A stretch of 31,695 bases of DNA from a virus. This document shows positions 1 to 11,997 of the stretch, one piece after another. The stretch lies in the IMG/VR virus record IMGVR_UViG_3300032053_000323, positions 1 to 31,695 of that record; one strand, 5' to 3'. The position numbers were made by a program, and so were the translations under genes. Under the pieces are notes generated by a model. It ran no database searches and had not been told where the DNA came from. It saw only the letters and a list, made by a program, of their open reading frames with translations. Each line of letters opens with the position of its first letter. Within the stretch, counting starts at the first letter, position 1.

Positions 1-38
1 CGCCGAAAGGATTGAGGGTTCGATTCCCTCCATGTGCA
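1..38 (+). tRNA. tRNA-Leu-like, 3' part only (cut by window start)
   Basis: Only the 3' half is present. A perfect T-arm (GAGGG, loop TTCGATT, CCCTC at 14-30) is followed by the 3' acceptor strand CATGTGC (31-37) and discriminator A38. The bases before the T-arm resemble the variable arm of the complete tRNA-Leu(CAG) at 3903, and the acceptor strands are nearly identical, so a leucine isoacceptor is likely. The anticodon lies outside the window. CCA is not encoded (CCC follows). Confidence 0.75.
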
Positions 39-39
39 C

Positions 40-142
40 CCACGAGTAACGAATATACGCGGCCAATGATCTTAAAAGTGCAGGCGAGACCCCTGCGATG
101 ATGCAGTTTGTCATGATCGTAGCAGGTAGAAAGTGAAAGTGG
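40..142 (+). ncRNA. inter-tRNA structured RNA element A (loop-E-like module)
   Basis: A terminal stem CCAC (40-43) / GTGG (139-142) encloses GAGTAAC (44-50) and AAGTGAAA (131-138). AGTA against GAA fits a bulged-G module, followed by the AC/GU step (49-50 with 133-134). Further in, ATGATC (66-71) pairs with GATCGT (115-120, one wobble). AAAAGT follows, then a GCAGG/CCTGC hairpin (80-96). The same flanking motifs occur in four other spacers with different stem sequences. The element starts 2 nt after the upstream tRNA and ends 5 nt before the next. The structure was drawn by eye and the function is unknown. Confidence 0.7.
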
Positions 143-147
143 ACATT

Positions 148-222
148 CCCCTCGTCCCGATGGATTTCGGGCACTTCTCTACGAAAGAAGTTGTTGCAGT
201 TCGATTCTGCACGAGGGGGCCA
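148..222 (+). tRNA. tRNA-Arg(ACG)
   Basis: The acceptor stem pairs CCCCTCG (148-154) with CGAGGGG (212-218). The D-stem is CCCGA/TCGGG. The anticodon stem CTTCT/AGAAG holds the loop CTACGAA (179-185), giving anticodon ACG, which after deamination to inosine would read CGU/CGC/CGA. The T-arm is TGCAG-TTCGATT-CTGCA. CCA (220-222) is encoded, and its CA is shared with the stem of the following RNA element. Confidence 0.9.
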
Positions 223-320
223 GCGAGTAACTGTTGCAAAAGAGATTAAAAGTAGACACGTGCGCATGGAGCTGTGGTGCGGTCCCGCGATAAGCGTAAT
301 CTTCGTGAAAGTGAAAGCTG
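221..320 (+). ncRNA. inter-tRNA structured RNA element B (loop-E-like module)
   Basis: The stem CAGC (221-224, including the CA of the tRNA CCA end) pairs with GCTG (317-320). Directly inside are GAGTAAC (225-231) and AAGTGAAA (309-316), as in element A. A second helix, AGATTA (243-248) / TAATCT (297-302), sits where element A has its inner helix and is followed by the same AAAAGT. A and B therefore form a larger subclass. Both helices differ in sequence from those of A but stay paired, which supports the fold. Confidence 0.7.
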
Positions 321-322
321 AA

Positions 323-341
323 GTGAGGGAACAACCCTCAC
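323..341 (+). other. perfect hairpin in a tRNA 5' leader
   Basis: GTGAGGG, loop AACAA, CCCTCAC form a perfect 7-bp stem. It lies between RNA element B and tRNA-Arg(UCG), ending 4 nt before the tRNA acceptor. No T-run follows, so it is not a standard intrinsic terminator. A role in spacing or processing the tRNA precursor is possible. Confidence 0.6.
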
Positions 342-345
342 CCAT

Positions 346-418
346 CTCCTCGTAATTCAGTGGTCAGAATGCCTGTCTTCGAAACAGGACGCCGCAGGTT
401 CGAATCCCGCCGAGGAGA
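346..418 (+). tRNA. tRNA-Arg(UCG)
   Basis: The acceptor is CTCCTCG (346-352) / CGAGGAG (411-417), with U8 at 353 and discriminator A418. The D-stem is ATTC/GAAT. The anticodon stem CCTGT/ACAGG encloses CTTCGAA, anticodon TCG, for CGA codons. The T-stem has one A-C mismatch. CCA is not encoded. The 3' acceptor strand GAGGAG lies 5 nt before the GTG start of the next gene and can serve as its ribosome binding site. Confidence 0.92.
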
Positions 419-422
419 CTAG

Positions 423-950
423 GTGTATAATAACAGCATGTATAACAGCGCAATGATTACGACTCCTGAGACTGTCGGAAACATCTTTGAAGCACATCGA
501 AACAGGCATGGAAATACTGTGCCTCTCGTCGCAACTTCTGGGGGATGCGATCCGTTGCATGTAGGCCACGTTCGCTGCATCGGTGGAGCGTCAATGCTAA
601 AAGGCAAGGACGGACTCCTCGTCGTCATCGTCAATGGAGATGGCTTCCTAAAAAGAAAAAAGGGTTACGCCTTCATGGAACTTCAGGAACGAATGGAACT
701 CATCGCATCGATCAGAGGGATCGATTATGTCGTCCCGTGGGATGATGGAACACAGTTCGTCTCAGGTGCGATTGAGATCATGAAACCGAACATCTTCGCA
801 AAAGGTGGAGATAGGTCGATGGCTGAAAATGTCCCAGAATACGAATGCTGTGTGAAGAACGCTTGTGCAGTCGTCTTTGGGATCGGCGGGACAGAAAAAG
901 TTCGTTCGAGTTCAGAGTTGATCGCTATGTACCAGCGACCTCTGAAATGA
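423..950 (+). CDS. cytidylyltransferase-like nucleotidyltransferase
   Basis: This 175-residue protein has the signatures of the HxGH nucleotidyltransferase family, which includes glycerol-3-phosphate cytidylyltransferase and the adenylyltransferase half of HldE/RfaE. The first motif is DPLHVGH at residues 43-49, followed by GYAFM-x-L-x-ERMELI (81-94), KGGDR (127-131) and a final RSSSEL (161-166) in place of the usual ISTT/RSSS motif. Such enzymes join a sugar or alcohol phosphate to CTP or ATP; the substrate cannot be told from sequence. I keep the GTG start at 423 because GAGGAG in the upstream tRNA acceptor lies 5 nt away. ATG codons at 438 and 453 lack a ribosome binding site. The position in a tRNA cluster gives no hint of pathway. 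Confidence 0.85.
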   Translation: MYNNSMYNSAMITTPETVGNIFEAHRNRHGNTVPLVATSGGCDPLHVGHVRCIGGASMLKGKDGLLVVIVNGDGFLKRKKGYAFMELQERMELIASIRGIDYVVPWDDGTQFVSGAIEIMKPNIFAKGGDRSMAENVPEYECCVKNACAVVFGIGGTEKVRSSSELIAMYQRPLK

Positions 951-966
951 TATATTTAAAATGTAT

Positions 967-1051
967 GGGCGGATGCTGGAATTTGGTAGACAACGAAGAT
1001 TTAGATTCTTCGGAGAGCAATCTCGTAGGGGTTCGAGTCCCCTTTCGCCCA
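967..1051 (+). tRNA. tRNA-Leu(UAG)
   Basis: The acceptor is GGGCGGA (967-973) / TTCGCCC (1044-1050). The anticodon stem GAAGA/TCTTC holds TTTAGAT, anticodon TAG at 1002-1004, for CUN codons. A class II variable arm (GAGA-GCAA-TCTC) is present, as expected for leucine. The T-arm is AGGGG-TTCGAGT-CCCCT. Discriminator A1051; CCA is not encoded. Confidence 0.92.
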
Positions 1052-1058
1052 CAACGGC

Positions 1059-1115
1059 CGCGTGAGACAAGTAACAGACTGTATCCTTCAAGGTTATAAG
1101 TGAAAGTGCGACGCG
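1059..1115 (+). ncRNA. inter-tRNA structured RNA element C (short form)
   Basis: The invariant AAGTAAC (1069-1075) and AAGTGAAA (1098-1105) lie between tRNA-Leu(UAG) and tRNA-Met. The flanking helix has CA/TG next to the motif (1067-1068 with 1106-1107), a 3x3 internal loop, then CGCGT (1059-1063) / ACGCG (1111-1115). It is the least regular of the five helices. The interior is only about 22 nt, with a CCTT/AAGG mini-helix. Confidence 0.6.
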
Positions 1116-1122
1116 ATCTTAT

Positions 1123-1194
1123 GCCTGTAAAGCCAAATGGCTCGGCGACTGTCTCATACGCAGTTTTAAGTGAGTTCGATTCTCACTGCAGGCA
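1123..1194 (+). tRNA. tRNA-Met(CAU), or tRNA-Ile2
   Basis: The acceptor is GCCTGTA (1123-1129) / TGCAGGC (1187-1193), discriminator A1194. The D-stem is GCC/GGC. The anticodon stem ACTGT/GCAGT holds CTCATAC, anticodon CAT. The T-stem GTGAG/CTCAC is perfect. Position 8 is A rather than T. Elongator Met and lysidine-modified Ile(AUA) cannot be told apart by anticodon; a separate tRNA-Ile(UAU) at 10822 makes Met more likely. CCA is not encoded. Confidence 0.88.
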
Positions 1195-1226
1195 CAAATG
1201 AAATGATGCAAGGAACGTAAGAAGTC

Positions 1227-1526
1227 ATGTGGGCAACAAAATACATCGAACAACTTCAGAACGGTGAAACGATCAAGTTCAGGCCGCACGGAAATTCCAT
1301 GCAACCTAGGATCGAATCAGGACAGCTTGTCACTGTCGTGCCGGTCAATCGAGAAGTGATCATCGGTGATGTTGTCTTGTGTAAGGTCGATGGTCAACAA
1401 TGGCTTCATCTTGTGACAACAATTGGTTCAGACGGACGCTTTCAGATTTCTAACAACAAAGGACACATCAATGGGTGGACCATGCTAAAGAACATCTTTG
1501 GCGTCGTCACCATAGTGGAACCGTGA
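1227..1526 (+). CDS. S24/S26-like mini serine peptidase fold protein
   Basis: The 99-residue protein resembles the catalytic core shared by LexA/S24 and signal-peptidase/S26 enzymes. HGNSMQPRI (21-29) matches the SGxSMxPxI nucleophile box with Ser24. GDVVLCKVDG (47-56) matches the GDxVxxxxxG strand. WLHLV (59-63) is where S24 and bacterial S26 enzymes place a catalytic Lys; a His there is typical of archaeal/ER-type signal peptidases (Ser-His type). SNNKG (75-79) resembles the late GDNN box. There is no transmembrane segment or DNA-binding domain, so neither a membrane signal peptidase nor a LexA repressor is expected. It could cleave a phage or host protein or be inactive. Its stop overlaps the start of the next gene (TGATG), so the two are coupled. 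Confidence 0.6.
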   Translation: MWATKYIEQLQNGETIKFRPHGNSMQPRIESGQLVTVVPVNREVIIGDVVLCKVDGQQWLHLVTTIGSDGRFQISNNKGHINGWTMLKNIFGVVTIVEP

Positions 1527-1960
1527 TGAAATTTTTCGTATACAGCAGATATGCAATCGAAGCGATCCAACCGCACGATGTGCCGCACATCATTGTTTCA
1601 ATCAGCACGCCGCCTGATGAGGAAGCGAACATCAGAATGAATGACAAGACGTTGGGCATCTTGCGACTGTGGTTCTTCGACAGGGACACGCCAACGGGCG
1701 AGGCATCTAAAGATCTCGAATCATTCTTGTTCATGCCAACGCATGCAGACCAGATCTTAGACCTTGTCGCAGCGCATCCCACAGCAGAACACTTTATCGT
1801 GCACTGTGATGCTGGCATCAGTAGATCGTCAGCAATTGCTGCTGCGATTTCAAAGATCACGTGTGGTGATGACAGCGAATACTTTCATGGCTGTCGTTAC
1901 CACCCAAACAGGCGTGTCTACAGGGGAATACTTGAAGCACACGCAAGGAGAACAGAGTAA
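1526..1960 (+). CDS. dual-specificity/tyrosine phosphatase-like protein
   Basis: The 144-residue protein carries the cysteine-phosphatase P-loop HCDAGISRS (93-101), fitting HCxxGxxRS with nucleophile Cys94 and phosphate-binding Arg100. Asp52 or Asp54 in FFDRD could be the general acid. Small phosphatases of this kind remove phosphate from proteins or nucleotide-type substrates. The start is set at ATG 1526, overlapping the previous stop; a longer frame from 1475 would run far into the upstream gene. Its stop overlaps the next start (TAATG), so 1227, 1526 and 1960 form a tightly coupled trio ahead of the release factor. The substrate is unknown. Confidence 0.75.
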   Translation: MKFFVYSRYAIEAIQPHDVPHIIVSISTPPDEEANIRMNDKTLGILRLWFFDRDTPTGEASKDLESFLFMPTHADQILDLVAAHPTAEHFIVHCDAGISRSSAIAAAISKITCGDDSEYFHGCRYHPNRRVYRGILEAHARRTE

Positions 1961-2626
1961 TGGAAACTGTCATCATAGAGATCAGGGCCGCAGAAGGCGG
2001 CGAGGACGCAAAATTGCTCGTCATTGACCAGCTTCGTGCCTATGTGAAGGCCGCGGAGCGGAGGTTTCTTTGAAACTGAGCTGTTAGACGAAAGGCCTGG
2101 ACTCGTTTCAGTGTCATTTTCTGGCGCTGGTTCGAAAGAACTGTTCTCGATGGAGGGCGGCGGTCATCGATGGCAGCGCGTTCCTCCCACTGAAAAACGT
2201 GGTAGGATGCAAACGTCGACAGTGACAGTCGCTGTCCTAGATCCGGATCAGATCGTCGGTCAGGCGCTCGATCCAAAAGACGTCCAAATTGAGACGATCA
2301 GGGGATCAGGTCCTGGTGGGCAAAAACGCAATAAGACAGAGAGCTGTGTCGTTGCAACACATGTTCCAACAGGCCTCACTGTCAAGATCGACATGCGTTC
2401 GCAGTTCCAGAGCAAAGCAATGGCAATGAAGGTGCTCGCTGGTCGATTGTACAACGCCGAGAGCGAACGTTTGCAGGCTGCAAAAGATGCCGTCAGGAAA
2501 AATCAAGTCGGCAGCGGAATGAGGGGCGATAAGATTCGCACTTATAGGTCGCAAGACAATCAAGTGACAGACCATCGAACAGGTCAGAAATTCAACCTCA
2601 GTAAATGGTTGAAGGGTGAATGGTGA
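1960..2626 (+). CDS. RF1-type peptide chain release factor without domain 1, expressed by +1 frameshift
   Basis: The first frame starts at ATG 1960 (AAGGAG 9 nt upstream) and runs 37 codons to a UGA at 2071-2073. A +1 shift there opens the frame that continues to 2626, giving 221 residues. The joined protein aligns with release factor domains 2-4. It opens with an IEIRAAEGGEDA box near residues 6-17 (RF1 has LEIRAGTGGDEA). Next comes GGHRWQRVPPTEKRGR, whose PPT (75-77) sits exactly where RF1 has its PxT stop-codon tripeptide and RF2 has SPF. Then GPGGQ (117-121) is the hydrolysis motif, and an RTY...VTDHR segment is near the end. The roughly 100 N-terminal residues of bacterial RF1 (domain 1) are absent. 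PxT implies reading UAA/UAG. The shift site copies prfB. PrfH is also short, but lacks PxT. A sequencing error is possible but unlikely given the context. Confidence 0.88.
2060..2073 (+). promoter_or_regulatory. programmed +1 ribosomal frameshift site, prfB type
   Basis: GGAGG (2060-2064), three nucleotides TTT, then CTT TGA. In E. coli prfB an AGGGGG Shine-Dalgarno-like stretch lies at the same 3-nt distance before CTT TGA. Peptidyl-tRNA-Leu slips from CTT to TTT and decoding resumes at GAA 2072. The base after UGA is A, not the C of prfB. Slippage should rise when UGA is read slowly, that is when RF2 is scarce. Confidence 0.88.
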
Positions 2627-2659
2627 TACAAACCGTTAGCGACGGTGTAAAGTTGGTCG

Positions 2660-3226
2660 ATGTCGATCCTAATAAAGCTATTTGCACTGTCATTGTCGTT
2701 CATGAGCATGCTCGGAATTTCAATACCATTGCTAACACCCATAAATGCACATGTGAAACATGAAGTTGTTGAGACACCTCTCACTGAGATTCAGTTGATG
2801 AGAGTTTTGAAAGATTCACACATAATCGTGTTTGGGAATGAACCATCGGATCATCGCCTCACGATGGCATGGGCTCAGGTTGCATTTGAAAATGGCCGCG
2901 GAGCATTGACGGTCAATCACAACATCGGAAATACATGGATGGGACCTGATGCTCCATACTATGTCGTTGGTGGGAATCAAAAGTATCGTTCATTCGCTAC
3001 CTTCGAAGAGGGTGCAAAGGCATATTGGATCACTATCAAGAGTTGTGGGCCGGCAACAAGGGCGTTCGAATGGGGTTCTGCGAAGGTGGCAGCTGAAGCG
3101 CTCAAGGCGTGCAATTATTATGATGCTGACATTGATGCATATGCCGCGGCCATGGGTTCACTGTATTACAATGCAAAAAAGTTGCTTCCTGAACTGAATG
3201 GAGGAAAAGATGGCGGAAGTTATTGA
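2660..3226 (+). CDS. secreted glucosaminidase/lysozyme-like enzyme
   Basis: The 188-residue protein has a signal peptide or N-terminal anchor (hydrophobic residues 3-25). AWAQVAFENGRG (70-81) then resembles the catalytic helix of lysozyme-fold glucosaminidases, with Glu77 as probable acid. HNIGN (87-91) and YRSFAT (109-114) match the NxxN.xGI and YxSF boxes of GH73 (FlgJ-like) enzymes. It probably cleaves peptidoglycan in the periplasm or outside the cell and could be an export-type (SAR-like) endolysin. No holin is recognised next to it. The ribosome binding site is weak. The end overlaps the start of the NADAR gene by 17 nt. Confidence 0.7.
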   Translation: MSILIKLFALSLSFMSMLGISIPLLTPINAHVKHEVVETPLTEIQLMRVLKDSHIIVFGNEPSDHRLTMAWAQVAFENGRGALTVNHNIGNTWMGPDAPYYVVGGNQKYRSFATFEEGAKAYWITIKSCGPATRAFEWGSAKVAAEALKACNYYDADIDAYAAAMGSLYYNAKKLLPELNGGKDGGSY

Positions 3227-3677
3227 CAGATTTGTGGGTGAGTTTTCATTCCTTTCAAACTTTCATCCCTCTACAATTGTCGTGAGCGGGAAATTCTACC
3301 CTAGCGTTGAACATGCATACCAAGCGATGAAGACGTTCGATGCTACAACACACGAGACGATCAGAAAAGCAAAGACACCCGGCGAAGCAAAAAAATTGGG
3401 CCGATGTGTCACATTGAGACCAGATTGGGAACATGTAAAAATTGATCTGATGCGTTCACTCGTCAAGAAAAAGTTCGAAAATCCACTTCTTCGTGAGATG
3501 TTGCTTGCGACAGAAGACGTTCCACTCGTCGAAGGGAACAATTGGAACGATTGTTTTTATGGCGTTTGTCGTGGAAAAGGCACTAATTGGCTCGGCAAGA
3601 TCCTTATTGAAGTTCGCAATGAAATTAGGGCCGAAGTCGCCGCCGAGAGTGTAATTGACGACAAATTTGTGATATGA
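3210..3677 (+). CDS. NADAR (YbiA/DUF1768) family protein
   Basis: The 155-residue protein matches the NADAR family along its length: FLSNF (14-18), YPSVEHAYQAMK (30-41), PGEAKKLGR (57-65), W73, M81, KKFENP (87-92), LLAT (98-101), LVEGNNWND (106-114), then GTNWLGKILIEVR near the end. Family members act on ADP-ribose-like or riboflavin-pathway N-glycosides; some remove ADP-ribose from guanine and so counter DarT1-type toxins. A counter-defence role in a phage is reasonable but inferred. I place the start at ATG 3210, 5 nt after GGAGG, rather than the in-frame ATG at 3198. Confidence 0.88.
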   Translation: MAEVIDRFVGEFSFLSNFHPSTIVVSGKFYPSVEHAYQAMKTFDATTHETIRKAKTPGEAKKLGRCVTLRPDWEHVKIDLMRSLVKKKFENPLLREMLLATEDVPLVEGNNWNDCFYGVCRGKGTNWLGKILIEVRNEIRAEVAAESVIDDKFVI

Positions 3678-3684
3678 TGGTATC

Positions 3685-3888
3685 ATGAAGACGATCGCTA
3701 TCGCTATTTTCTTGGCAATCTCTTTCTCGGGGAATTCGCAGACGATTGCTTCGCCTCTCGATTGTGAAAGCATTCACGATCCCGATGCGCGGAACTATTG
3801 TCGGGCGATCTCGAAACACGATAAGAGTTACTGTTCTTTCATCAAGTCACATGATCTCCGAGCTCGATGTCGAGCTGAGGTAAAGTGA
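3685..3888 (+). CDS. small secreted cysteine-repeat protein
   Basis: The 67-residue protein begins with a clear signal peptide (MKTIAIAIFLAISFSG). The mature part holds two copies of one unit, C-x2-I-x3-D-x-R-x2-CRA: CESIHDPDARNYCRA and CSFIKSHDLRARCRA. The four cysteines could form two disulfides in the periplasm or outside the cell. I do not recognise a family with known function. It starts 7 nt after the NADAR gene and precedes tRNA-Leu(CAG). Confidence 0.7.
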   Translation: MKTIAIAIFLAISFSGNSQTIASPLDCESIHDPDARNYCRAISKHDKSYCSFIKSHDLRARCRAEVK

Positions 3889-3902
3889 ATAGTTATCGAT
3901 AT

Positions 3903-3987
3903 GCACATGTGGCGGAACTGGTATACGCATACGCCTCAGAAGCGTACGCCGTGAGGATTGAGGGTTCGACTCCCTTCGTGTGCACCA
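3903..3987 (+). tRNA. tRNA-Leu(CAG)
   Basis: The acceptor is GCACATG (3903-3909) / CGTGTGC (3977-3983). The anticodon stem TACGC/GCGTA encloses CTCAGAA, anticodon CAG for CUG. A class II variable arm is present. Discriminator A3984, CCA encoded at 3985-3987. The last A is also the first base of the next RNA element's stem. Confidence 0.93.
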
Positions 3988-4052
3988 TGCTACAAGTAAC
4001 TCTGACCCGTACGTCAGAAATTCAGCAAATAACGCGTAAGTGAAAATAGCAT
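3987..4052 (+). ncRNA. inter-tRNA structured RNA element D (short form)
   Basis: ATGCTA (3987-3992) pairs perfectly with TAGCAT (4047-4052). Inside are CAAGTAAC (3993-4000) and AAGTGAAAA (4038-4046), with the AC/GU step and AGTA/GAA pairing of the other copies. An interior hairpin CTGAC/GTCAG lies at 4002-4016. The element runs from the CCA end of tRNA-Leu(CAG) to 2 nt before tRNA-Arg(CCU). This is one of the two best-paired copies. Confidence 0.78.
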
Positions 4053-4054
4053 AT

Positions 4055-4136
4055 CTCCTCGTAGTCTAGCGGACAAGGCACCACTTTCCTAAAGTGACGA
4101 CGAAAGTCATCGCAGGTTCGATTCCTGCCGAGGAGA
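4055..4136 (+). tRNA. tRNA-Arg(CCU) with an extra variable arm
   Basis: The acceptor is CTCCTCG (4055-4061) / CGAGGAG (4129-4135), discriminator A4136. The anticodon stem CACT/AGTG (with a C-A mismatch at its base) holds TTCCTAA, anticodon CCT for AGG. The T-arm is GCAGG-TTCGATT-CCTGC. The variable region is 15 nt and contains GAC-GAAA-GTC, a small hairpin; class I arginine tRNAs normally have 4-5 nt here. Acceptor and T-arm are nearly the same as in tRNA-Arg(UCG), so it looks like a paralogue with an inserted arm. Confidence 0.82.
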
Positions 4137-4145
4137 CTAAAGAAA

Positions 4146-4511
4146 ATGTGTTCTCATGACCATAAGCGATTTATGTTCACAATTGACACAGATGAAGAAG
4201 ATCAATTTACAGTCGACTTATACGACGCTGAAGAACACATCGGTTATGTGAACGTCGTCAGAGCACGAGTTCGTGTCTGTAAAGGCAGCACTTACATTTG
4301 GGAAACGCACTCTCGTCTCAATGAAAAATATCACAAGACGGGATTAGGAATTTGCATGTATGCTGAGGCAATCAGACATGCAAAAAAGAGTGGTTATACG
4401 ATCACGTCATCGCGGGCGCCGAGCGCGCAAGCCCAGCGCCTCTGGACGTCAAAGACGCTAAATTCGATGTTTTCAATCATACGTTTTCACTTTCGCTGGT
4501 GGGTAAAATGA
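4146..4511 (+). CDS. GNAT-like acetyltransferase domain protein
   Basis: The 121-residue protein has a segment typical of small phage GNAT-fold proteins. WETHSRLNEKYHKTGLGICMYAEAIRHAKKSGY contains a YxxxGLGxxMY acetyl-CoA-loop-like stretch (about residues 62-73) followed by a helix, then a region rich in S and A before LW. The first half is beta-rich. The acceptor is unknown. The ATG lies 10 nt after the GGAG of the tRNA-Arg(CCU) acceptor, which may act as its ribosome binding site. The stop overlaps the next start (ATGA). Confidence 0.6.
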   Translation: MCSHDHKRFMFTIDTDEEDQFTVDLYDAEEHIGYVNVVRARVRVCKGSTYIWETHSRLNEKYHKTGLGICMYAEAIRHAKKSGYTITSSRAPSAQAQRLWTSKTLNSMFSIIRFHFRWWVK

Positions 4512-4891
4512 AAATTCTAGTGACTGGCGATAGAAATTGGGATGACTATAACATCGTCGCTGAAGCACTTAGTGCGTTGCCACCCGGAACGATCATCGTG
4601 CACGGTGCTTGTCGTGGTGCTGATGTCATTTGCGCAGAAACAGCAAAAGAACTTGGATTCATCGTTCGATCATATCCTGCTGATTGGAAGCGTTTCGGTC
4701 GGGCGGCGGGCCCGGTCAGAAATAAGCAGATGCTCACTGAAGAAAACTTGTCTCATGAACCTATCAATTTCGTCTATGCGTTTCACAATGATCTCAAAAA
4801 TTCTCGTGGGACAAAGAATATGCTCAAGCAAGCAGAATCTTGCGGCGTTCGCTATCGACTTTTCTCATCTCCTCGTAGCATAACTGAATAA
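4508..4891 (+). CDS. SLOG/DUF2493 (YspA-like) nucleotide-binding protein
   Basis: The 127-residue protein begins MKILVTGDRNWDD and has HGACRGAD (32-39) and PADW-x-RFGRAAGPVRN (57-71), the three hallmark boxes of the DUF2493/YspA branch of the SLOG Rossmann-like superfamily. These proteins are thought to bind nucleotides or nucleotide-derived ligands; the activity is not settled. ATG 4508 overlaps the previous stop; an in-frame GTG at 4499 would only add three residues. Its last 23 nt lie inside the tRNA-Arg(CCG) gene. Confidence 0.85.
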   Translation: MKILVTGDRNWDDYNIVAEALSALPPGTIIVHGACRGADVICAETAKELGFIVRSYPADWKRFGRAAGPVRNKQMLTEENLSHEPINFVYAFHNDLKNSRGTKNMLKQAESCGVRYRLFSSPRSITE

Positions 4892-4945
4892 CGCATCCGC
4901 CTCCGACGCGGACGATTGTGAGTTTGAATCTCACCGAGGAGACCA
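4869..4945 (+). tRNA. tRNA-Arg(CCG), overlapping the upstream CDS
   Basis: The acceptor is CTCCTCG (4869-4875) / CGAGGAG (4935-4941). The anticodon stem TCCGC/GCGGA encloses CTCCGAC, anticodon CCG for CGG. Discriminator A4942 and encoded CCA (4943-4945). The D-arm is irregular and lacks the usual GG. The first 23 nt are also the last codons of the SLOG gene, so tRNA excision from a joint transcript would truncate that mRNA. Confidence 0.88.
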
Positions 4946-4959
4946 ACTGTGTAATCTTG

Positions 4960-4975
4960 ATACCTGACAAGGTAT
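4960..4975 (+). other. hairpin between tRNA-Arg(CCG) and the lipoprotein gene
   Basis: ATACCT, loop GACA, AGGTAT form a perfect 6-bp hairpin 15 nt after the tRNA. It is followed by AGTAAAATT, not a T-run, so termination is doubtful. It may stabilise the 5' end of the downstream mRNA. Confidence 0.45.
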
Positions 4976-4997
4976 AGTAAAATTCAGAGGCGAAATA

Positions 4998-6062
4998 ATG
5001 GTCAAGCGTATTGGTGTTCTAACGAGTCTTATCGTGTTGAGTTCAACGTTGATTGCATGTGGATCTGATCACGGAATCGATCCCGGTTGGGAAAATGACG
5101 TGGGAGCCGATGTCGCTCGTGACTCTGGTCGTGATAGTGGGCGAGATTCCAGAATGACAAGCGTTGACTCTGGTCCTGCGTGCATTCAAAACGACGACAA
5201 GTGGCAACAAGGCGCAGGGTGCGGTGAAATCGCGGCGCCGATCCTATACCACAGTGGTGAGGTGATGAAAAATGGTGCAAACGTTTATTTTGTCTGGTAT
5301 GGTGACTGGAAGGATAGCTCCATCCCAACAATTCTCGAAGATCTCGCAAAAAACATTGGAAACACCCCTTACTACAATATCAACAAAGGATATTTCGAAA
5401 ATTCCTCTATTGAAGTAACCGGGAATGCTGGCGGATTTCCTGTCTATGTCTCTGGGCGCGTCACATTGATCAGAAGTATCACTGTGGGATACACTCATGG
5501 AAAAAATCTATCAGATGAAGATGTGAAGGCAATTGTTGATGACTCAATTAACAGTGGCGAACTTCCGTTTGATTGGGACGGAACATACTTCGTAATGGGT
5601 TCGAAGAAAGTTCAGCAGCATAGTGGTGGTTACACATTTTGTGGCAGTTATTGTGGCTGGCACGATCATGGAAAATTGATGTATCGTGGAGATCCTGAAC
5701 GTGTGATTGATCTCAAATACTCATTTGTTGGAAATCCCGACCAGTGTCTTCGTGATTGCACCATTTATAGTAATGAACGTGCACATGGAATTGAAGTGAG
5801 TCCAAATGGTGATTGGGCGGCTGATAGCATGGCGTCAGTCTGGGCTCATGAATTGAGTGAAATGGTGACTGATCCGTATCTTACGGCATGGTGGGATTCA
5901 TATGGTTGGCAGAATGCTGACAAGTGTGCATGGACATTCGGACAAACGTATTGCGCCGCGAACGGCGCCATGGCGAATGTCAAGATCGGCGATCGAGACT
6001 ATCTCCTTCAACGCAATTGGGTAAATGACCCTGTGTGCGGTCGATGTGACATGAAACCGTGA
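4998..6062 (+). CDS. EXORDIUM/phosphate-induced-1-like lipoprotein
   Basis: The 354-residue protein has a lipoprotein signal with lipobox LIAC (Cys21), then an Asp/Ser/Gly/Arg-rich linker (about 34-60). The rest resembles the plant EXORDIUM (phosphate-induced protein 1) family. GDW...P near 103-110 is followed by a YY.I...Y segment, FCGSYCGWHDHG (214-225), YSFVGNPDQC (241-250) and SPNGDWAADSMASVWAHELSEMVTDP..TAWW. ADKCAW follows. HELSE (284-288) recalls a metal site, but no enzyme activity is established for the family. The linker resembles those of Myxococcota lipoproteins, suggesting acquisition from a host. It probably sits on the membrane or cell surface and may alter the envelope or exclude other phages; that role is inferred. 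Confidence 0.8.
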   Translation: MVKRIGVLTSLIVLSSTLIACGSDHGIDPGWENDVGADVARDSGRDSGRDSRMTSVDSGPACIQNDDKWQQGAGCGEIAAPILYHSGEVMKNGANVYFVWYGDWKDSSIPTILEDLAKNIGNTPYYNINKGYFENSSIEVTGNAGGFPVYVSGRVTLIRSITVGYTHGKNLSDEDVKAIVDDSINSGELPFDWDGTYFVMGSKKVQQHSGGYTFCGSYCGWHDHGKLMYRGDPERVIDLKYSFVGNPDQCLRDCTIYSNERAHGIEVSPNGDWAADSMASVWAHELSEMVTDPYLTAWWDSYGWQNADKCAWTFGQTYCAANGAMANVKIGDRDYLLQRNWVNDPVCGRCDMKP

Positions 6063-6247
6063 TGAAATCGTTTTTTCTAATCATATGTTTGATATCATCA
6101 GGTTGTTTCCTGAGGTGGGATGTCCCAAAGACACCTCGTCGAGATCCTTGCACAGGTGCAGTGTCTGAGACCTACGTATACATGGCAACCTGTGAAACGC
6201 CTCAAGTCATTCAAATTCGTCCTCATCATTGGCATGATCATTATTGA
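6062..6247 (+). CDS. small putative lipoprotein
   Basis: The 61-residue protein starts at ATG 6062, overlapping the stop of the EXORDIUM-like gene (TGATG). The N-terminus MKSFFLIICLISSGC is a short lipoprotein signal with lipobox SSGC. The mature part has two more cysteines and a His-rich tail (HHWHDHY), which might bind metal. No family is recognised. Coupling to the larger lipoprotein suggests they are made and exported together. Confidence 0.65.
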   Translation: MKSFFLIICLISSGCFLRWDVPKTPRRDPCTGAVSETYVYMATCETPQVIQIRPHHWHDHY

Positions 6248-6386
6248 ATTGTCATGCATTGTGATTAAAATTGACGGAACCGTCCCACCAGGAGTGTATA
6301 TCGAGTCAAAATGGGATTATCCTAGTACTACCAAAGGCAATGACGCCGGAGGAAATGAGTCGGATCAACGTGAAACGTTGAAGTGA
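6234..6386 (+). CDS. hypothetical 50-residue protein
   Basis: An ATG at 6234 inside the end of the small lipoprotein gene opens a frame to TGA 6384-6386. The product begins with a hydrophobic stretch (MIIIELSCIVIKI) and ends in a polar tail. It fills the space before the next gene, and overlapping starts are common here, but no ribosome binding site or homology is seen. It may not be expressed. Confidence 0.4.
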   Translation: MIIIELSCIVIKIDGTVPPGVYIESKWDYPSTTKGNDAGGNESDQRETLK

Positions 6387-6396
6387 AGGCAATATC

Positions 6397-6741
6397 ATGG
6401 TTGGACTAACCAGAGGTCGAAAAGAGAATAACGTGCGGCGCTACCCGGGCAAGGGCGGGAGCAAGCACAATCCTGTGCGCATCGAAGAGCGATGCAAGGA
6501 AGCGAAGGAGCGCCTTGAGGCATGGCAGAAGATGTCGCCTCAAGATCAGCTTGCAACGCTTGATCGCAGGTGCGGAAGCGGAAAAGGCGCTGCAAAGCAG
6601 CGTGCTCGAATCGCAGCAAGGATCAAAAGTCCCAATGCGAAGGTTGCAGTCGTCGAGCAACCCGTACAGAGCGCAGAGCACAAGCAGAAGGCCAAGGAGC
6701 GTCGTGAGCTGAACAGAAAAGCTCGACATCAGTTCGAGTAA
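6397..6741 (+). CDS. small basic hypothetical phage protein
   Basis: The 114-residue, strongly basic protein has RRYPGKGGSKHN near its start and SPQDQLATLDRRCGSGKGAAKQRARI in the middle, a stretch that recurs in small phage proteins of unknown function. Helical, charged segments follow (EHKQKAKERRELNRKARHQFE). The charge suggests RNA or DNA binding; this is inference. GAAGG lies about 8 nt before the start. Confidence 0.65.
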   Translation: MVGLTRGRKENNVRRYPGKGGSKHNPVRIEERCKEAKERLEAWQKMSPQDQLATLDRRCGSGKGAAKQRARIAARIKSPNAKVAVVEQPVQSAEHKQKAKERRELNRKARHQFE

Positions 6742-6763
6742 GCGAGGACATGGATACTTAAAT

Positions 6764-6782
6764 CTGTACCGTCATGGTACAG
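6764..6782 (+). other. perfect hairpin in the tRNA-Val(GAC) leader
   Basis: CTGTACC, loop GTCAT, GGTACAG form a 7-bp perfect stem ending 4 nt before the tRNA acceptor, the same placement as the hairpin at 323-341 before tRNA-Arg(UCG). No T-run follows. Confidence 0.55.
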
Positions 6783-6786
6783 GTGA

Positions 6787-6859
6787 CAGAGATGAGTGAG
6801 CTGGTGAACACGCTTGTATGACATGCAAGTATCGAAGGGTTCGATCCCCTTATCTCTGA
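6787..6859 (+). tRNA. tRNA-Val(GAC)
   Basis: The acceptor is CAGAGAT (6787-6793) / ATCTCTG (6852-6858). The anticodon stem CTTGT/GCAAG encloses ATGACAT, anticodon GAC. The T-arm is AAGGG-TTCGATC-CCCTT. Position 8 is G rather than T and the D-stem has only three pairs. Discriminator A6859; CCA is not encoded. Confidence 0.87.
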
Positions 6860-6889
6860 CAAGAATGAAAATAGAAGTGAGGTCAAGCA

Positions 6890-7294
6890 ATGTCATCAGA
6901 ACCAATGCCATCAGAACCAAAGATGGTCATCGTCGTCCGCCGCGACTTAAACATGAGGAAGGGAAAAGTTGCTGCGCAAGTAGCGCATGCATCGATGAAG
7001 TTTCTCATTGATAACAATGAGTCAGAACGCGGAGACGAAGTCATCGTCAAGCTGTCAAATGCTGAAGCGATGTGGCTCTCGGGATCATTCACAAAGATCG
7101 TCGTGTCTGTCGATTCAGAAGACAAACTAAAAGACCTCATGCTACAGGCACAATTGAGCGACATTGAGGTGCACCCGATTGTCGATGCCGGAAGAACGGA
7201 ATTCAACGGAGTGCCAACATTGACATGTGCAGCGTTCGGCCCGTGCGATGCAGACCTCCTAGATGAAATTACAGGTGACTTGAAACTGATGTGA
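6890..7294 (+). CDS. Pth2-type peptidyl-tRNA hydrolase
   Basis: The 134-residue protein matches the archaeal/eukaryotic Pth2 family: KMVIVVRRDLNMRKGKVAAQVAHAS (11-35) is the hallmark N-terminal strand and helix, and residues 85-120 hold the C-terminal HPIVDAGRTEF and TCAAFGP boxes. Pth2 cleaves the ester bond of peptidyl-tRNA released from stalled ribosomes and recycles the tRNA. It is unrelated in fold to bacterial Pth1. The first 11 residues, with a repeated SEPMPSEP stretch, precede the domain, so Met12 could be an alternative start. It lies between valine tRNAs. With the release factor and RNA ligases it points to upkeep of the tRNA pool. Confidence 0.92.
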   Translation: MSSEPMPSEPKMVIVVRRDLNMRKGKVAAQVAHASMKFLIDNNESERGDEVIVKLSNAEAMWLSGSFTKIVVSVDSEDKLKDLMLQAQLSDIEVHPIVDAGRTEFNGVPTLTCAAFGPCDADLLDEITGDLKLM

Positions 7295-7302
7295 TGAAAG
7301 AT

Positions 7303-7373
7303 GGCCGATTGGTGTAATGGTAGCGCGATCCCCCTACACGGGATAAGCGTGGGTTCGATTCCCTCATTGGCTA
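7303..7373 (+). tRNA. tRNA-Val(UAC)
   Basis: The acceptor is GGCCGAT (7303-7309) / ATTGGCT (7366-7372), with two G-U pairs. The anticodon stem ATCCC/GGGAT encloses CCTACAC, anticodon TAC. Position 33 is C instead of the near-universal U. The T-stem has one T-T mismatch. Discriminator A7373; no CCA. It ends 5 nt before the next tRNA. Confidence 0.85.
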
Positions 7374-7378
7374 CAAAT

Positions 7379-7463
7379 GGAAACATACTCAAGTGGTTTA
7401 CGAGACCCGATTGCTAATCGGGCGGGTGTAAGAGCCCCGGAGGTTCGAATCCTCCTGTTTCCG
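7379..7463 (+). tRNA. tRNA-Ser(GCU)
   Basis: The acceptor is GGAAACA (7379-7385) / TGTTTCC (7456-7462). The anticodon stem CCCGA/TCGGG encloses TTGCTAA, anticodon GCT for AGU/AGC. A long class II variable arm and discriminator G7463 fit serine identity. CCA is not fully encoded. Confidence 0.93.
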
Positions 7464-7479
7464 CAAAAAGAATAATTTA

Positions 7480-7725
7480 GTGTTAACGCTCCTAACATAT
7501 CTTGGTGTGATGTACGTTCTTTGGTTATGCTTGTGCGGAGCATTGTTTGTTCACTACAACAACTGGGGTTGGAAGAAGGACGAATCGGGTGACAAGTTGT
7601 TGATCATAGCATACCTCCCGTACTATCCTTTCGCTTGGACATACCTGAACACAAAAGATTTGCTCGAATTTATTGGTGAAGCGCTCGGCGCGCCGGATGA
7701 GGATCTCGGAACATGGTTGAAATGA
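7480..7725 (+). CDS. small membrane protein
   Basis: The 81-residue protein starts at GTG 7480. It opens with one strongly hydrophobic segment (about 2-26), followed by a polar loop (NNWGWKKDESGDK) and a second, weaker aromatic stretch (LLIIAYLPYYPFAWTYL). An acidic amphipathic tail closes it. One or two membrane passes are likely. No family is recognised. A holin-type size is possible but not supported further. Its end overlaps the next gene. Confidence 0.6.
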   Translation: MLTLLTYLGVMYVLWLCLCGALFVHYNNWGWKKDESGDKLLIIAYLPYYPFAWTYLNTKDLLEFIGEALGAPDEDLGTWLK

Positions 7726-7934
7726 AGTGTCCGAATTGTCAAGCTCAGATCACGATGTATGAAGCACCGTATTTGGGTCCATCTCCCAACGACGGATGGC
7801 CATGTTTGTTCTGTCAACAAATGGTCTGCATGTACTGTTACACAGACCACACGTATGATAAGCATCCCGAGAAATATGGCATAAAATCAGACGGTGGAAA
7901 CAGCAAGAGGAAAAAGAAGAGACACCAGAAGTGA
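7713..7934 (+). CDS. small zinc-ribbon protein
   Basis: The 73-residue protein contains MKCPNCQAQ, CLFCQQ and CMYC, that is three CxxC knuckles enough to bind zinc, plus His residues in the following TDHTYDKH stretch, then a very basic tail (KRKKKRHQK). ATG 7713 is chosen because GAGGA lies 9 nt upstream; ATG 7722 is an alternative. The basic tail suggests nucleic acid contact; the function is unknown. Confidence 0.65.
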   Translation: MVEMKCPNCQAQITMYEAPYLGPSPNDGWPCLFCQQMVCMYCYTDHTYDKHPEKYGIKSDGGNSKRKKKRHQK

Positions 7935-7956
7935 CCTGAGGGACCGTCACGAGCAC

Positions 7957-7982
7957 GGAAGATTGGCCGAGTGGCTTAAGAT
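7957..7982 (+). pseudogene. 5' fragment of a serine-type tRNA
   Basis: GGAAGATTGGCCGAGTGGCT, continuing TAAGAT, is a canonical acceptor strand, U8 and D-arm of a class II serine tRNA. It is followed at once by GGAAGGT, which pairs better with the 3' acceptor at 8064-8070. The fragment either is a relic of a second tRNA or supplies the true 5' end of a tRNA with a 26-nt insertion. Confidence 0.55.
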
Positions 7983-8071
7983 GGAAGGTTTGGAACATTG
8001 GAAAGTCAGACAGTTTCGAAAACTGTTGTGTGTTTTAAAACATACTGGGCGTTCGACTCGCTCACCTTCCG
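7983..8071 (+). tRNA. tRNA-Ser(CGA)
   Basis: The acceptor GGAAGGT (7983-7989) / ACCTTCC (8064-8070) is perfect. The anticodon stem ACAGT/ACTGT encloses TTCGAAA, anticodon CGA for UCG. The long variable arm pairs GTGTGT (8028-8033) with ACATAC (8040-8045, one G-U). The T-arm has loop TTCGACT. Discriminator G8071 fits serine. The D-arm inside these limits is poor (two pairs), while a good serine D-arm lies just upstream at 7964-7980, so the 5' end is uncertain. Confidence 0.75.
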
Positions 8072-8093
8072 CTGAAGAAGAATACGTAATATC

Positions 8094-8291
8094 ATGTGCT
8101 ACATGTGCTTAAAGAATAATCCGTTCGATGCTAGCGATAATTCGTCAACGCCTCAATACAAGCGAACGAGGGCGTTGGAATTGAAACGCTTGATCAAAGA
8201 ATTCGAAGACTTTGAAAATAAGTGTGTTAATACCGTTGAAGCGATCGAAGCCTTGAAAGAGGAACAGTACAGATTATCTCGAGACCTGTGA
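8094..8291 (+). CDS. hypothetical small protein
   Basis: The 65-residue protein starts MCYMCLKNN and is otherwise mostly helical and charged (YKRTRALELKRLIKEFEDFENK, then VEAIEALKEEQYRL), suggesting a coiled coil. It ends 1 nt before the convergent glycosyltransferase gene. No family is recognised. The lack of a clear ribosome binding site keeps confidence moderate. Confidence 0.5.
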   Translation: MCYMCLKNNPFDASDNSSTPQYKRTRALELKRLIKEFEDFENKCVNTVEAIEALKEEQYRLSRDL

Positions 8292-8292
8292 A

Positions 8293-9072
8293 TTACAAGA
8301 CAGTCTTGAATCTCTCGCCGACGATGAGCGCCTGACTGTCATGATGAAATCTCGTAGGTGTGTTCAACCTCGCATAAAATTGTTCACGTAATGCGTCGCC
8401 AGTCTCAGCATGGTATGCATTTTGGTTCGTATATGTTCGTGTTCGTTGCTGGTGCCGTGCCTGGCACCTGTCAAAGTCCATGTAGTGTGTATCGATAAGA
8501 ACACAACCCGTTGATGGAACTTTTCTGTACATCTTATCAACATAGTGATAACCACGTTGAAATTGGGGCGGTGACTTGAATATGAGCGTGTTATCCCATT
8601 TCGGGATACGAATCCAGTTCTTCCTTTGCGAAAGCCACAGTTTATCGAGCTCAATTGCGGGTTCAGAGTTTAGGTCTTGGATCAATCCCCAGCCCTCAAA
8701 TGTTACGTTCAATTCTTGTGGTGTTGAAAGAAATTTCTCGTACATTTGTTGCATGCCATGAGGATAGATGATGGGATCAGCGATCAAAAAATCATCTGCC
8801 TCAACGAATGTGACACACTTGTACGATTGTAGCAACGTTGCAATACGAACGCCTACGATGGGTGCAAGTGAATTTGCTCCGCTATTTTGACCCAATCCTG
8901 TGAGTTTTTCAACGTGCATACTCGGGTCGATAGAATCGAGAGATCCATCTGTTGAACCATCATCAATGATGTAAAAATCTTCAGGCGCAAATAATTTTAG
9001 ATAATAAGTGAACCATTGAGGAAGTATCGCACCTTCGTCGCGCACAGTTGTGATGATGCACTTATCTTTCAT
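8293..9072 (-). CDS. glycosyltransferase, GT2/GT92-like (GT-A fold)
   Basis: The 259-residue protein opens CIITTVRDEGAILPQWFTYYL, typical of the glycosyltransferase 2_4/DUF23 group. YIIDDGSTDGS (34-44) is the nucleotide-sugar binding box and EADDF (91-95) sits at the metal-binding DxD position. It probably moves a sugar from a nucleotide sugar to an unknown acceptor such as the host surface, the virion or DNA. It is the only minus-strand gene among the tRNAs, has its own transcript direction, and may have been inserted separately. Confidence 0.85.
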   Translation of the reverse strand: MKDKCIITTVRDEGAILPQWFTYYLKLFAPEDFYIIDDGSTDGSLDSIDPSMHVEKLTGLGQNSGANSLAPIVGVRIATLLQSYKCVTFVEADDFLIADPIIYPHGMQQMYEKFLSTPQELNVTFEGWGLIQDLNSEPAIELDKLWLSQRKNWIRIPKWDNTLIFKSPPQFQRGYHYVDKMYRKVPSTGCVLIDTHYMDFDRCQARHQQRTRTYTNQNAYHAETGDALREQFYARLNTPTRFHHDSQALIVGERFKTVL

Positions 9073-9100
9073 GGACTAAATAGCTTCGCATCAGTGATTT

Positions 9101-9187
9101 GGAAGGGTGGCTGAGAGGTCTAAGGCACCGCGTTGGAAACGCGAAGGATCGTCATTGATCCCGCAGGTTCAAATCCTGTTCCTTCCC
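9101..9187 (+). tRNA. tRNA-Ser(GGA)
   Basis: The acceptor is GGAAGGG (9101-9107) / TCCTTCC (9180-9186). The anticodon loop TTGGAAA gives anticodon GGA (stem CGCG/CGCG plus a mismatch at its base). The class II variable arm pairs GGATC with GATCC. The discriminator would be C9187, unusual because serine tRNAs normally carry G; CCA is not encoded. Confidence 0.87.
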
Positions 9188-9193
9188 CGAGTG

Positions 9194-9229
9194 TACTATC
9201 GTGTGAGAGATGGTATAGTTAAGATAGTA
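9194..9229 (+). other. stem-loop between tRNA-Ser(GGA) and tRNA-Gly(GCC)
   Basis: TACTATC (9194-9200) pairs perfectly with GATAGTA (9223-9229) around a 22-nt loop, ending 2 nt before the next tRNA. Part of the loop can pair differently (ACTAT/ATAGT). It lacks the GUGAAA strand of the five loop-E-like elements, so I do not count it with them. Confidence 0.45.
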
Positions 9230-9231
9230 AC

Positions 9232-9306
9232 GCAGATGTAATTCAGTGGTAGAATGCAACGTTGCCAACGTTGACGTCGAGGGTTCGAACCCCTCCATCT
9301 GCTCCA
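9232..9306 (+). tRNA. tRNA-Gly(GCC)
   Basis: The acceptor is GCAGATG (9232-9238) / CATCTGC (9296-9302). The anticodon stem CAACG/CGTTG encloses TTGCCAA, anticodon GCC. Discriminator T9303 is a glycine identity base. CCA is encoded at 9304-9306, and its last two bases form part of the stem of RNA element E. Confidence 0.93.
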
Positions 9307-9390
9307 CGTCACCAGTAACTAGTAAGTGTTGATTTTCTAAATTGACACAATTTGAATAAGTTGAACTATGTTGAAGGTGAAAGTGACGTG
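9305..9390 (+). ncRNA. inter-tRNA structured RNA element E (short form)
   Basis: CACGTCAC (9305-9312) pairs perfectly over 8 bp with GTGACGTG (9383-9390). Directly inside are CAGTAAC (9313-9319) and AAGGTGAAA (9374-9382), giving AGTA/GAA and AC/GU as in the other copies. The interior is AT-rich and contains GTGT/ACAC pairing. The element spans from the CCA of tRNA-Gly(GCC) to 4 nt before tRNA-Gly(UCC). With element D it gives the clearest evidence for the conserved fold. Confidence 0.8.
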
Positions 9391-9394
9391 ATTT

Positions 9395-9475
9395 GCGAAC
9401 ATGGCCCAAAGGTACGGCACTAGTTTTCCAAACTAACGGAGAAATCCATTGTAAGTTCGAGTCTTACTGTTCGCT
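9395..9475 (+). tRNA. tRNA-Gly(UCC) with an extra variable arm
   Basis: The acceptor is GCGAACA (9395-9401) / TGTTCGC (9468-9474), discriminator T9475. G1-C72, C2-G71 and U73 fit glycine. The anticodon stem TAGT/ACTA (C-A mismatch at its base) encloses TTTCCAA, anticodon TCC. The T-arm GTAAG-TTCGAGT-CTTAC is perfect. The variable region is 14 nt and contains GGA-GAAA-TCC, like the inserted hairpin in tRNA-Arg(CCU). CCA is not encoded. Confidence 0.82.
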
Positions 9476-9574
9476 CTGATAAACATAAAATTGATGATGC
9501 AATTAAACGAAACAACGTTACGTTGATTATACTTGAAACTCTTAAAACTATTACAGAGTTCACATTAGAAAATC

Positions 9575-9886: not shown

Positions 9887-10056
9887 AGAAAAATAAGCGA
9901 CGAAAGATGACACAAGAGCAGGTTGATGCAATCAACAGGAGACGTGACCTCACAGAAGGAACGAACCTGAGCTTCGAACATCCACACAAGCGATTGAAAC
10001 TCGATGAAAATGGAAGACCCATAGAGGTCGACGTGATCACCGACATGAGATGGTAA
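9883..10056 (+). CDS. hypothetical 57-residue basic protein
   Basis: A frame opens at GTG 9883, overlapping the HNH stop (GTGA), and runs to TAA 10054-10056, which overlaps the start of the RNA ligase gene. The start could also be ATG 9907. The product is basic at the N-terminus (KKNKRRKMTQEQ) and ends FEHPHKRLKLDENGRP followed by a short acidic segment. Position and double overlap argue that it is real; the function is unknown. Confidence 0.65.
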   Translation: MKKNKRRKMTQEQVDAINRRRDLTEGTNLSFEHPHKRLKLDENGRPIEVDVITDMRW

Positions 10057-10796
10057 AGAAAGAACGTAAGTTGTCAGAGTATACTGAAGAGCGTGAACAC
10101 AAACGATCTTTGCGAGGCAGCAGAGAAAATGCGTATGACAAAGAACATGGAAATGTCCATGAAGTCGAGAACATCGTGAAACACTATCCATCAATTTCAT
10201 ATGCAACTGAATGTCCGGTGCCCATTATTGCATTCGATAAGCTCGATGGAAGCAATATCCGTGCAGAATGGTCGAACAAAAAGGGTTGGTACAAACTCGG
10301 CACTCGAAAGAGATTGGTCGACGAGACTGATCAATTGTTCGGCCGGGTTCCTGAATTGCTTACAAGTGGAATGGGGGATGCATTGAGTGAGGCCCTTCAT
10401 GAGGCAGGATATGACCGTGCAATGTGCTTCTTTGAACTACACGGAATGTCGTCTTTTGCAGGCATGCACGATCCAAAAGATCCGACGTTAAAATTGACAC
10501 TCTTTGACGTTGCACCCTTCAAACAAGGGATTCTCGAACCAGAGAAGTTCATTGAATTATTCGGTCATCTCGACGTTCCGGCGATCTTGTACCGCGGCGA
10601 AATCAATGAGGAATTCATCGAACAAATTCGTTCAAGCACCCTTCAGGGCATGACGTTCGAAGGCGTCGTCTGCAAAGGAAAGAACAACAAGAAGACAAAG
10701 ATGCCGATCATGTTCAAGCAAAAGAGCCGTGCCTGGCTCGATAAATTGCATGAATATTGCGGCGACAATGCTGAACTATTTAGAACATTGAGGTGA
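10050..10796 (+). CDS. RNA ligase, Rnl2-like
   Basis: The 248-residue protein has the nucleotidyltransferase motifs of ATP-dependent RNA ligases. Motif I is KLDGSN (64-69, AMP-accepting Lys64), followed by GTRKR (84-88), FFELHG (127-132; motif IIIa region), FEGVVCKG (203-210; motif IV) and FKQKSRAWL (222-230; motif V). The C-terminal domain is short, as in small Rnl2/DRB0094-type ligases. These enzymes seal 3'-OH/5'-phosphate breaks in RNA, often cleaved tRNAs. The N-terminus is highly charged. Placed among tRNAs beside an HNH gene, a role in tRNA repair is likely but inferred. Confidence 0.88.
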   Translation: MVKKERKLSEYTEEREHKRSLRGSRENAYDKEHGNVHEVENIVKHYPSISYATECPVPIIAFDKLDGSNIRAEWSNKKGWYKLGTRKRLVDETDQLFGRVPELLTSGMGDALSEALHEAGYDRAMCFFELHGMSSFAGMHDPKDPTLKLTLFDVAPFKQGILEPEKFIELFGHLDVPAILYRGEINEEFIEQIRSSTLQGMTFEGVVCKGKNNKKTKMPIMFKQKSRAWLDKLHEYCGDNAELFRTLR

Positions 10797-11973: not shown

Positions 11974-11997
11974 GGTATATTCATATCTAGGTACCAA

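Follow-up and report, generated by a model that had tools for sequence, protein, structure and literature searches.

Analysis of the IMG/VR virus record IMGVR_UViG_3300032053_000323, a linear phage fragment of 31,695 bases examined over its complete length (hereafter the window), revealed that the spacers of its tRNA array contain five copies of a structured RNA element belonging to a family that recurs in the tRNA arrays of many phages. In each copy an outer stem, different in sequence from copy to copy, encloses a conserved AGUAAC...GUGAAA core and a variable interior. The window carries 15 tRNAs, all on one strand, and all five copies located in a preliminary description of the sequence were confirmed on the + strand between tRNA genes, with the stems and core strands as originally given (Table 1). 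The pattern AGTAACN{18,48}RGTGAAA has two matches in the window (0.04 expected from shuffled sequence), as has a longer-gap version of it (0.08 expected), and all of these matches lie on the tRNA strand.

The preliminary description had proposed that the stem covaries, and this was borne out both by a register test (48 copies) and by permutation of an alignment (50 rows). The register test used copies from many phages that had been chosen on position and core, never on pairing, with permuted partners as the null. The four-base outer flanks paired with their own partners at z = 9.2, 11.5, 11.8 and 7.3 in the diagonal registers, and the remaining registers gave no such pairing (z between -1.6 and 1.6). 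Since the interiors range from 23 to >100 nt, no full covariance model was built, and the family was tested instead on a compact alignment of 50 rows to which the window copies had been added (A1) and on an alignment of 11 tRNA-like copies (A2). In A1, 78.8% of the pair cells were standard, compared to 60.3±1.6 after shuffling and 19-34% when the strands were slid by one to three columns. Double changes numbered 95 (41.8±5.0 when shuffled), and the covariation score of 0.454 (0.160±0.018 when shuffled) was reached in 0 of 500 shuffles. The fold of the outer stem is thus established by covariation. Minimum-free-energy folding alone would not have revealed the fold in the window copies, with z near 0 in copies 1-3 and near -2 in copies 4 and 5.

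From the outside inwards, the element consists of (i) an outer stem of 3-8 bp, (ii) one or two unpaired bases, (iii) AGUA opposite GAA, (iv) three pairs (A-U, C-G and Y-R) and (v) the free interior; A or C follows GAA. The two hexamers served as search seeds, so that their invariance holds by construction and is no evidence. At the position directly preceding RGUGAA, left unconstrained in the search, 49 of the 50 rows of A1 have A. The AC/GU closing pairs described earlier held, and the third pair above them (Y7-R′) covaries in addition (CG 33, UG 7 and UA 6 in A1); GGUAAC variants with good stems were also found. The AGUA/GAA internal loop has helices on both sides (67.6% paired outside and 97.3% inside), and opposing AGUA and GAA strands constitute the loop E/S-turn of T-box RNAs (PMC4695836). 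This match, together with the two helices, supports the assignment already made in the preliminary description, by which AGUA/GAA is a predicted loop E (S-turn) module, recognised from its strand sequences and not from a structure.

For stems of 3 bp or more, the first base of the 5′ strand falls on position 75-77 of the upstream tRNA in 26 of 28 copies, independently of stem length (3 to 8 bp), and the 3′ strand stops 2-11 nt short of the next tRNA in 24 of 27. The spacer is therefore folded from tRNA to tRNA, and this placement of the borders points to a role tied to tRNA ends. In the window, the stems of copies 2, 4 and 5 begin at position 75 of tRNA-Arg(acg), position 76 of tRNA-Leu(cag) and position 75 of tRNA-Gly(gcc), respectively, and leaders of 2 nt and 4 nt separate copies 4 and 5 from tRNA-Arg(cct) and tRNA-Gly(tcc). 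Copy 1 is preceded by a tRNA-Leu-like 3′ half (1-39), truncated by the window start, and followed by tRNA-Arg(acg), which begins at 148; copy 3 is flanked by tRNA-Leu(tag) and tRNA-Met(cat).

Viral contigs were scanned with tRNA-anchored patterns and the matches filtered on position, core and stem; all copies thus adjoin tRNAs by selection, and untethered copies were not sought. This yielded 41 distinct stringent copies in 17 contigs including the window (loci of one contig pooled), so that at least 16 other IMG/VR phage contigs carry the element. Many of these are 100-390 kb in size and represent large uncultured phages. The original observation of five copies in a single genome stands, but it had missed this spread of the family. 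The AGTAAC..RGTGAA pairs are strongly biased with respect to strand (110 on the tRNA strand against 3 on the opposite one), an excess to which the choice of regions contributes in part. Certain neighbour contexts repeat across phages, namely Cys(gca)-element-Thr(ggt) and Gly(tcc)-element-Gly(ccc), and at the Gly-Gly array sites of different phages the cap is constant and the interior sequences are unrelated. The large terminase of the carrier contig of locus L091 has T4-superfamily relatives at no more than ~41% identity and no close named relative.

Many other pattern matches are due to chance, including one protein-coding family. In ten large named or deposited phages, Xanthomonas phage XacN1 among them, the pattern was not in excess of the reversed control, and the array spacers of XacN1 lack the element. 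Bacillus phages (phiNIT1 and relatives) were rejected as carriers: the pattern was matched, but both the GUGAAA strand and the outer stem fail to be conserved in the relatives. A looser pattern run against bacterial genomes gave matches of which those listed look like chance (one, with a long stem, has no tRNA nearby), and chromosomal copies are neither shown nor excluded by it. As a separate observation, Bacillus phages of the genera Nitunavirus, Grisebachstrassevirus and Jeonjuvirus contain a strongly conserved stretch 3′ of tRNA-Asp (L171:9588-9780 and homologues L296-L299), in which only small hypothetical ORFs are annotated.

The interiors fall into two classes, hairpins of ~23-64 nt and mostly tRNA-sized interiors of 65-110 nt. 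A simple cloverleaf fit identified D, anticodon and T arms in 21 large interiors, which were compared with 542 free tRNAs of the same arrays. Acceptor positions 1-3 are paired in only 0.48, 0.38 and 0.52 of these interiors (~0.98 in free tRNAs), short of a 7-bp acceptor stem. U33 is kept in 9/21 (474/542 in free tRNAs), a normal T loop in 18/21, and CCA is absent; a minority of copies look normal. RNAalifold, applied to A2 with no imposed structure, recovered the outer stem, the inner three pairs and all three arms (D, anticodon and T); 17 of the 21 consensus pairs show compensatory changes, and the consensus 3′ of the T arm is G-N-A-R-GUGAA. A few enclosed domains resemble tRNAs that are close to normal; in L013/L009 the cap surrounds such Thr, Lys, Gln and Val domains. 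In about one third of the copies the tRNA domain is unrecognisable or doubtful; none of the five window copies gave a cloverleaf fit, and the 81-nt interior of copy 1 is without a recognisable tRNA. The interior had correctly been called variable, but it had escaped notice that in related phages it is often a degenerate tRNA. Judging by these sequence features, the enclosed domain probably has a tRNA shape that would often be unable to function as a tRNA.

The reading we favour, with somewhat less than an even chance, is that the element serves as a structured spacer RNA which punctuates polycistronic phage tRNA transcripts, is read via its S-turn and is released by tRNA processing. The flanking tRNAs and the element would be transcribed as one precursor, in which the outer helix, running from the upstream tRNA end (after N73-C74/C75) to a short, often A/U-rich, stretch in front of the next tRNA, would fold the spacer away. 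The S-turn above this helix would serve as the constant mark, leaving the interior (degenerate tRNA, tRNA-like domain or hairpin) largely free. A putative host or phage factor may recognise the S-turn helix and direct, or protect, the cut at the upstream tRNA 3′ end; an RNase P cut at the 5′ end of the downstream tRNA would then free the element as a separate RNA of ~50-130 nt. Among the functions suggested in the preliminary description, this putative processing role fits best because the stem begins at the upstream tRNA 3′ end (26/28 copies).

Several observations weigh against punctuation. No binding factor was found: Ro60/TROVE is absent from the clear carriers, and ribosomal L25 and RNase III domains are absent from 13 records (host copies would be available). 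The core occurs in 41 of 131 spacers of 30-177 nt, so that most tRNA pairs have no element between them. Pure punctuation would also leave the normal T loop (18/21) and the D arm of the tRNA-like interiors unexplained. In favour of punctuation, spacers without the core also lean towards paired ends (6.11, compared to 5.37±0.09), which suggests that folding from end to end is a general trait of spacers in these arrays, although some of these spacers are unrecognised tRNAs. Separately, the Trp-to-Gln spacers of L157 and L154 (~100-110 nt) hold another closed tRNA-like RNA that lacks the AGUAAC/GUGAA core. Its closing stem is long, it has a T arm, and a GAGGAAAG stretch is common to both spacers.

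A more far-reaching proposal, which we rate as somewhat doubtful, is a new class of S-turn-capped, non-decoding tRNA-shaped RNAs that would be cut from tRNA operons and bound by a dedicated protein, several of the phages having their own RNase P RNA. If this were true, these viruses would bring with them a tRNA maturation apparatus of their own, yielding RNAs of obscure purpose.

The main rival to punctuation, in our judgement unlikely, is a tRNA mimic acting in trans, in which a tRNA-shaped domain on a protein-bound S-turn helix would act, in the manner of a Y RNA, on host or phage tRNA-binding enzymes. The unguided consensus fold, comprising outer stem, S-turn and all three arms with its compensatory changes, agrees with such a role, and the retention of the T loop alongside the frequent loss of U33 and of acceptor pairs 1-3 is what would be expected of a non-decoding tRNA shape. 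However, a role in trans has no need of exact abutment to both tRNAs, and it sits poorly with the third of copies lacking a clear tRNA domain and with the failure of the cloverleaf fit in the window. The complete series from near-normal tRNAs (L013/L009) through degenerate ones to hairpins could instead be a record of decay, in which capped tRNA genes are relics, the cap only keeps a defective tRNA silent and the interior grows shorter over time. This is improbable, since a pure relic would lose both core and stem, whereas both are conserved after loss of the tRNA and the stems covary. It is very improbable that the element is a self-cleaving ribozyme cutting at the tRNA 3′ end: it does sit immediately at that end, as theta ribozymes do (PMC10879173), but how far the core lies from the tRNA end depends on stem length, and the border placement argues against a ribozyme in which active site and cut are a set distance apart. 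One short internal loop is the sole conserved part, and the five copies match no HDV or other ribozyme family (E up to 5). Chance or an alignment artefact, conceivable in view of the short hexamers used as seeds, is scarcely credible and is refuted by the off-register and permuted controls, the strand control, the unselected conserved A and the boundary at position 75-77.

Table 1. Element copies, flanking tRNA genes, other genes of the window and phage RNase P RNAs (window coordinates unless a locus is named).
Feature	Position (strand)	Details
Copy 1	40..142 (+)	stem CCAC 40-43 / GTGG 139-142; core AGTAAC 45-50, GTGAAA 133-138
Copy 2	221..320 (+)	stem CAGC 221-224 / GCTG 317-320; core AGTAAC 226-231, GTGAAA 311-316
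Copy 3	1059..1115 (+)	stem CGCGT 1059-1063 + CA 1068-1069 / TG 1107-1108 + ACGCG 1111-1115; core AGTAAC 1070-1075, GTGAAA 1100-1105; interior a 23-nt hairpin
Copy 4	3987..4052 (+)	stem ATGCTA 3987-3992 / TAGCAT 4047-4052; core AGTAAC 3995-4000, GTGAAA 4040-4045; hairpin interior
Copy 5	9305..9390 (+)	8-bp stem CACGTCAC 9305-9312 / GTGACGTG 9383-9390; core AGTAAC 9314-9319, GGTGAA 9376-9381
tRNA-Arg(acg)	148..222 (+)	ARAGORN; between copies 1 and 2
tRNA-Arg(tcg)	346..419 (+)	ARAGORN; 3′ of copy 2
tRNA-Leu(tag)	967..1052 (+)	ARAGORN; 5′ of copy 3
tRNA-Met(cat)	1123..1195 (+)	ARAGORN; 3′ of copy 3
tRNA-Leu(cag)	3903..3987 (+)	ARAGORN; 5′ of copy 4
tRNA-Arg(cct)	4055..4137 (+)	ARAGORN; 3′ of copy 4
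tRNA-Gly(gcc)	9232..9306 (+)	ARAGORN; 5′ of copy 5
tRNA-Gly(tcc)	9395..9476 (+)	ARAGORN; 3′ of copy 5
Release-factor-like gene	1960-2626	PCRF and RF-1 domains
Peptidyl-tRNA hydrolase PTH2	6890-7294	above Pfam cut-off
RNA-ligase-like protein	10050-10796	below Pfam cut-off
T4 RNA ligase 1-like protein	11941-13263	
Phage RNase P RNA	L307 (G002:11028-11385 -)	class A, within 224-277 bits
Phage RNase P RNA	L308 (G005:95514-95861 -)	class A, within 224-277 bits
Phage RNase P RNA	L309 (G008:85287-85640 -)	class A, within 224-277 bits
Phage RNase P RNA	L306 (G014:39985-40339 -)	class A, within 224-277 bits
Short phage RNase P RNA	L310:1501-1707 (G004:82201-82407 +)	207 nt, 118.5 bits

Phage tRNA arrays are usually read as gene lists whose spacers are empty. 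In the present arrays many spacers are structured over their whole length, and they hold both a recurrent RNA module and tRNA-like RNAs that are overlooked, or called tRNAs, by tRNA finders; for such phages, some of the tRNAs counted and anticodons listed may belong to RNAs unable to decode. The maturation of long phage tRNA precursors and the fate of decayed tRNAs become testable questions.

The tRNA arrays of four carrier phages contain a class A RNase P RNA of the full-length bacterial type (Table 1). The short RNase P RNA of one carrier (L310) is missing long stretches of the Rfam model and keeps GAGGAAAGU, ACAGAA and neighbouring motifs of the catalytic core. No RNase P RNA was detected in ten comparison large phages, and no report of a phage-encoded RNase P RNA within tRNA arrays was found in open-licence PMC papers. 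In the window, the release-factor-like gene is seemingly split across two frames at GGAGGTTTCTTTGA, a site similar to that of the programmed +1 frameshift in bacterial prfB. The genes for PTH2 and the two ligase-like proteins lie in or beside the tRNA array.

A search of window positions 1-9500 against Rfam (E up to 5) returned tRNAs and weak tRNA-like or unrelated matches, none of them on the five copies and none to the HDV or T-box families, in agreement with the earlier statement that the element belongs to no named RNA family. A first identification as YrlA/Ro60 was rejected on arm order, motif, score and the absence of TROVE. YrlA (Rfam RF02553) resembles the element in having a tRNA-like domain closed by a terminal stem with a conserved motif. 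However, its tRNA mimic is permuted (T, anticodon-like, D), whereas the order in the element is D-anticodon-T, and the stem motif of the element (AGUAACY/RGUGAAM) differs from that of YrlA. The YrlA cut-off was not reached, as no record scored above 69 bits, and weak scores were also obtained in 13 of 14 control genomes. Ro60 (TROVE) was present in 1 of 19 records only, that of the doubtful carrier L100, a host Ro60 being possible. Elsewhere, one tRNA-rich phage contig (L138) carries a GOLLD RNA (2688-3094, 326 bits) near a sub-threshold full-length YrlA-like RNA (1501-1605, 41.5 bits).

With the loop E/S-turn (bulged-G or sarcin-ricin motif; T-box specifier loop, Stem II) the element shares an internal loop of opposing AGUA and GAA strands (PMC4695836). 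This is a module and not a family, and the element is without a T-box match, specifier codon evidence or evidence of an amino-acid-gene leader. Theta ribozymes, which are HDV-like, occur beside phage tRNAs and have been proposed to cut at the tRNA 3′ end (PMC10879173), are likewise phage RNA elements placed directly at tRNA 3′ ends; in contrast, the element has no HDV-type match and no fixed core-to-tRNA-end distance, and is a simple helix with an internal S-turn. No earlier description of the element was found in open-licence PMC papers, although one may exist elsewhere. In rRNA and tRNA operons, intercistronic processing stems are formed by leader-trailer pairing of the enclosed RNA. The element shares this pairing around an enclosed RNA, but differs in its conserved S-turn, in enclosing decayed tRNAs or hairpins and in being fitted to the flanking tRNAs. 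We regard this family of RNAs as new; functionally, it may turn out to be a more ordinary processing signal.

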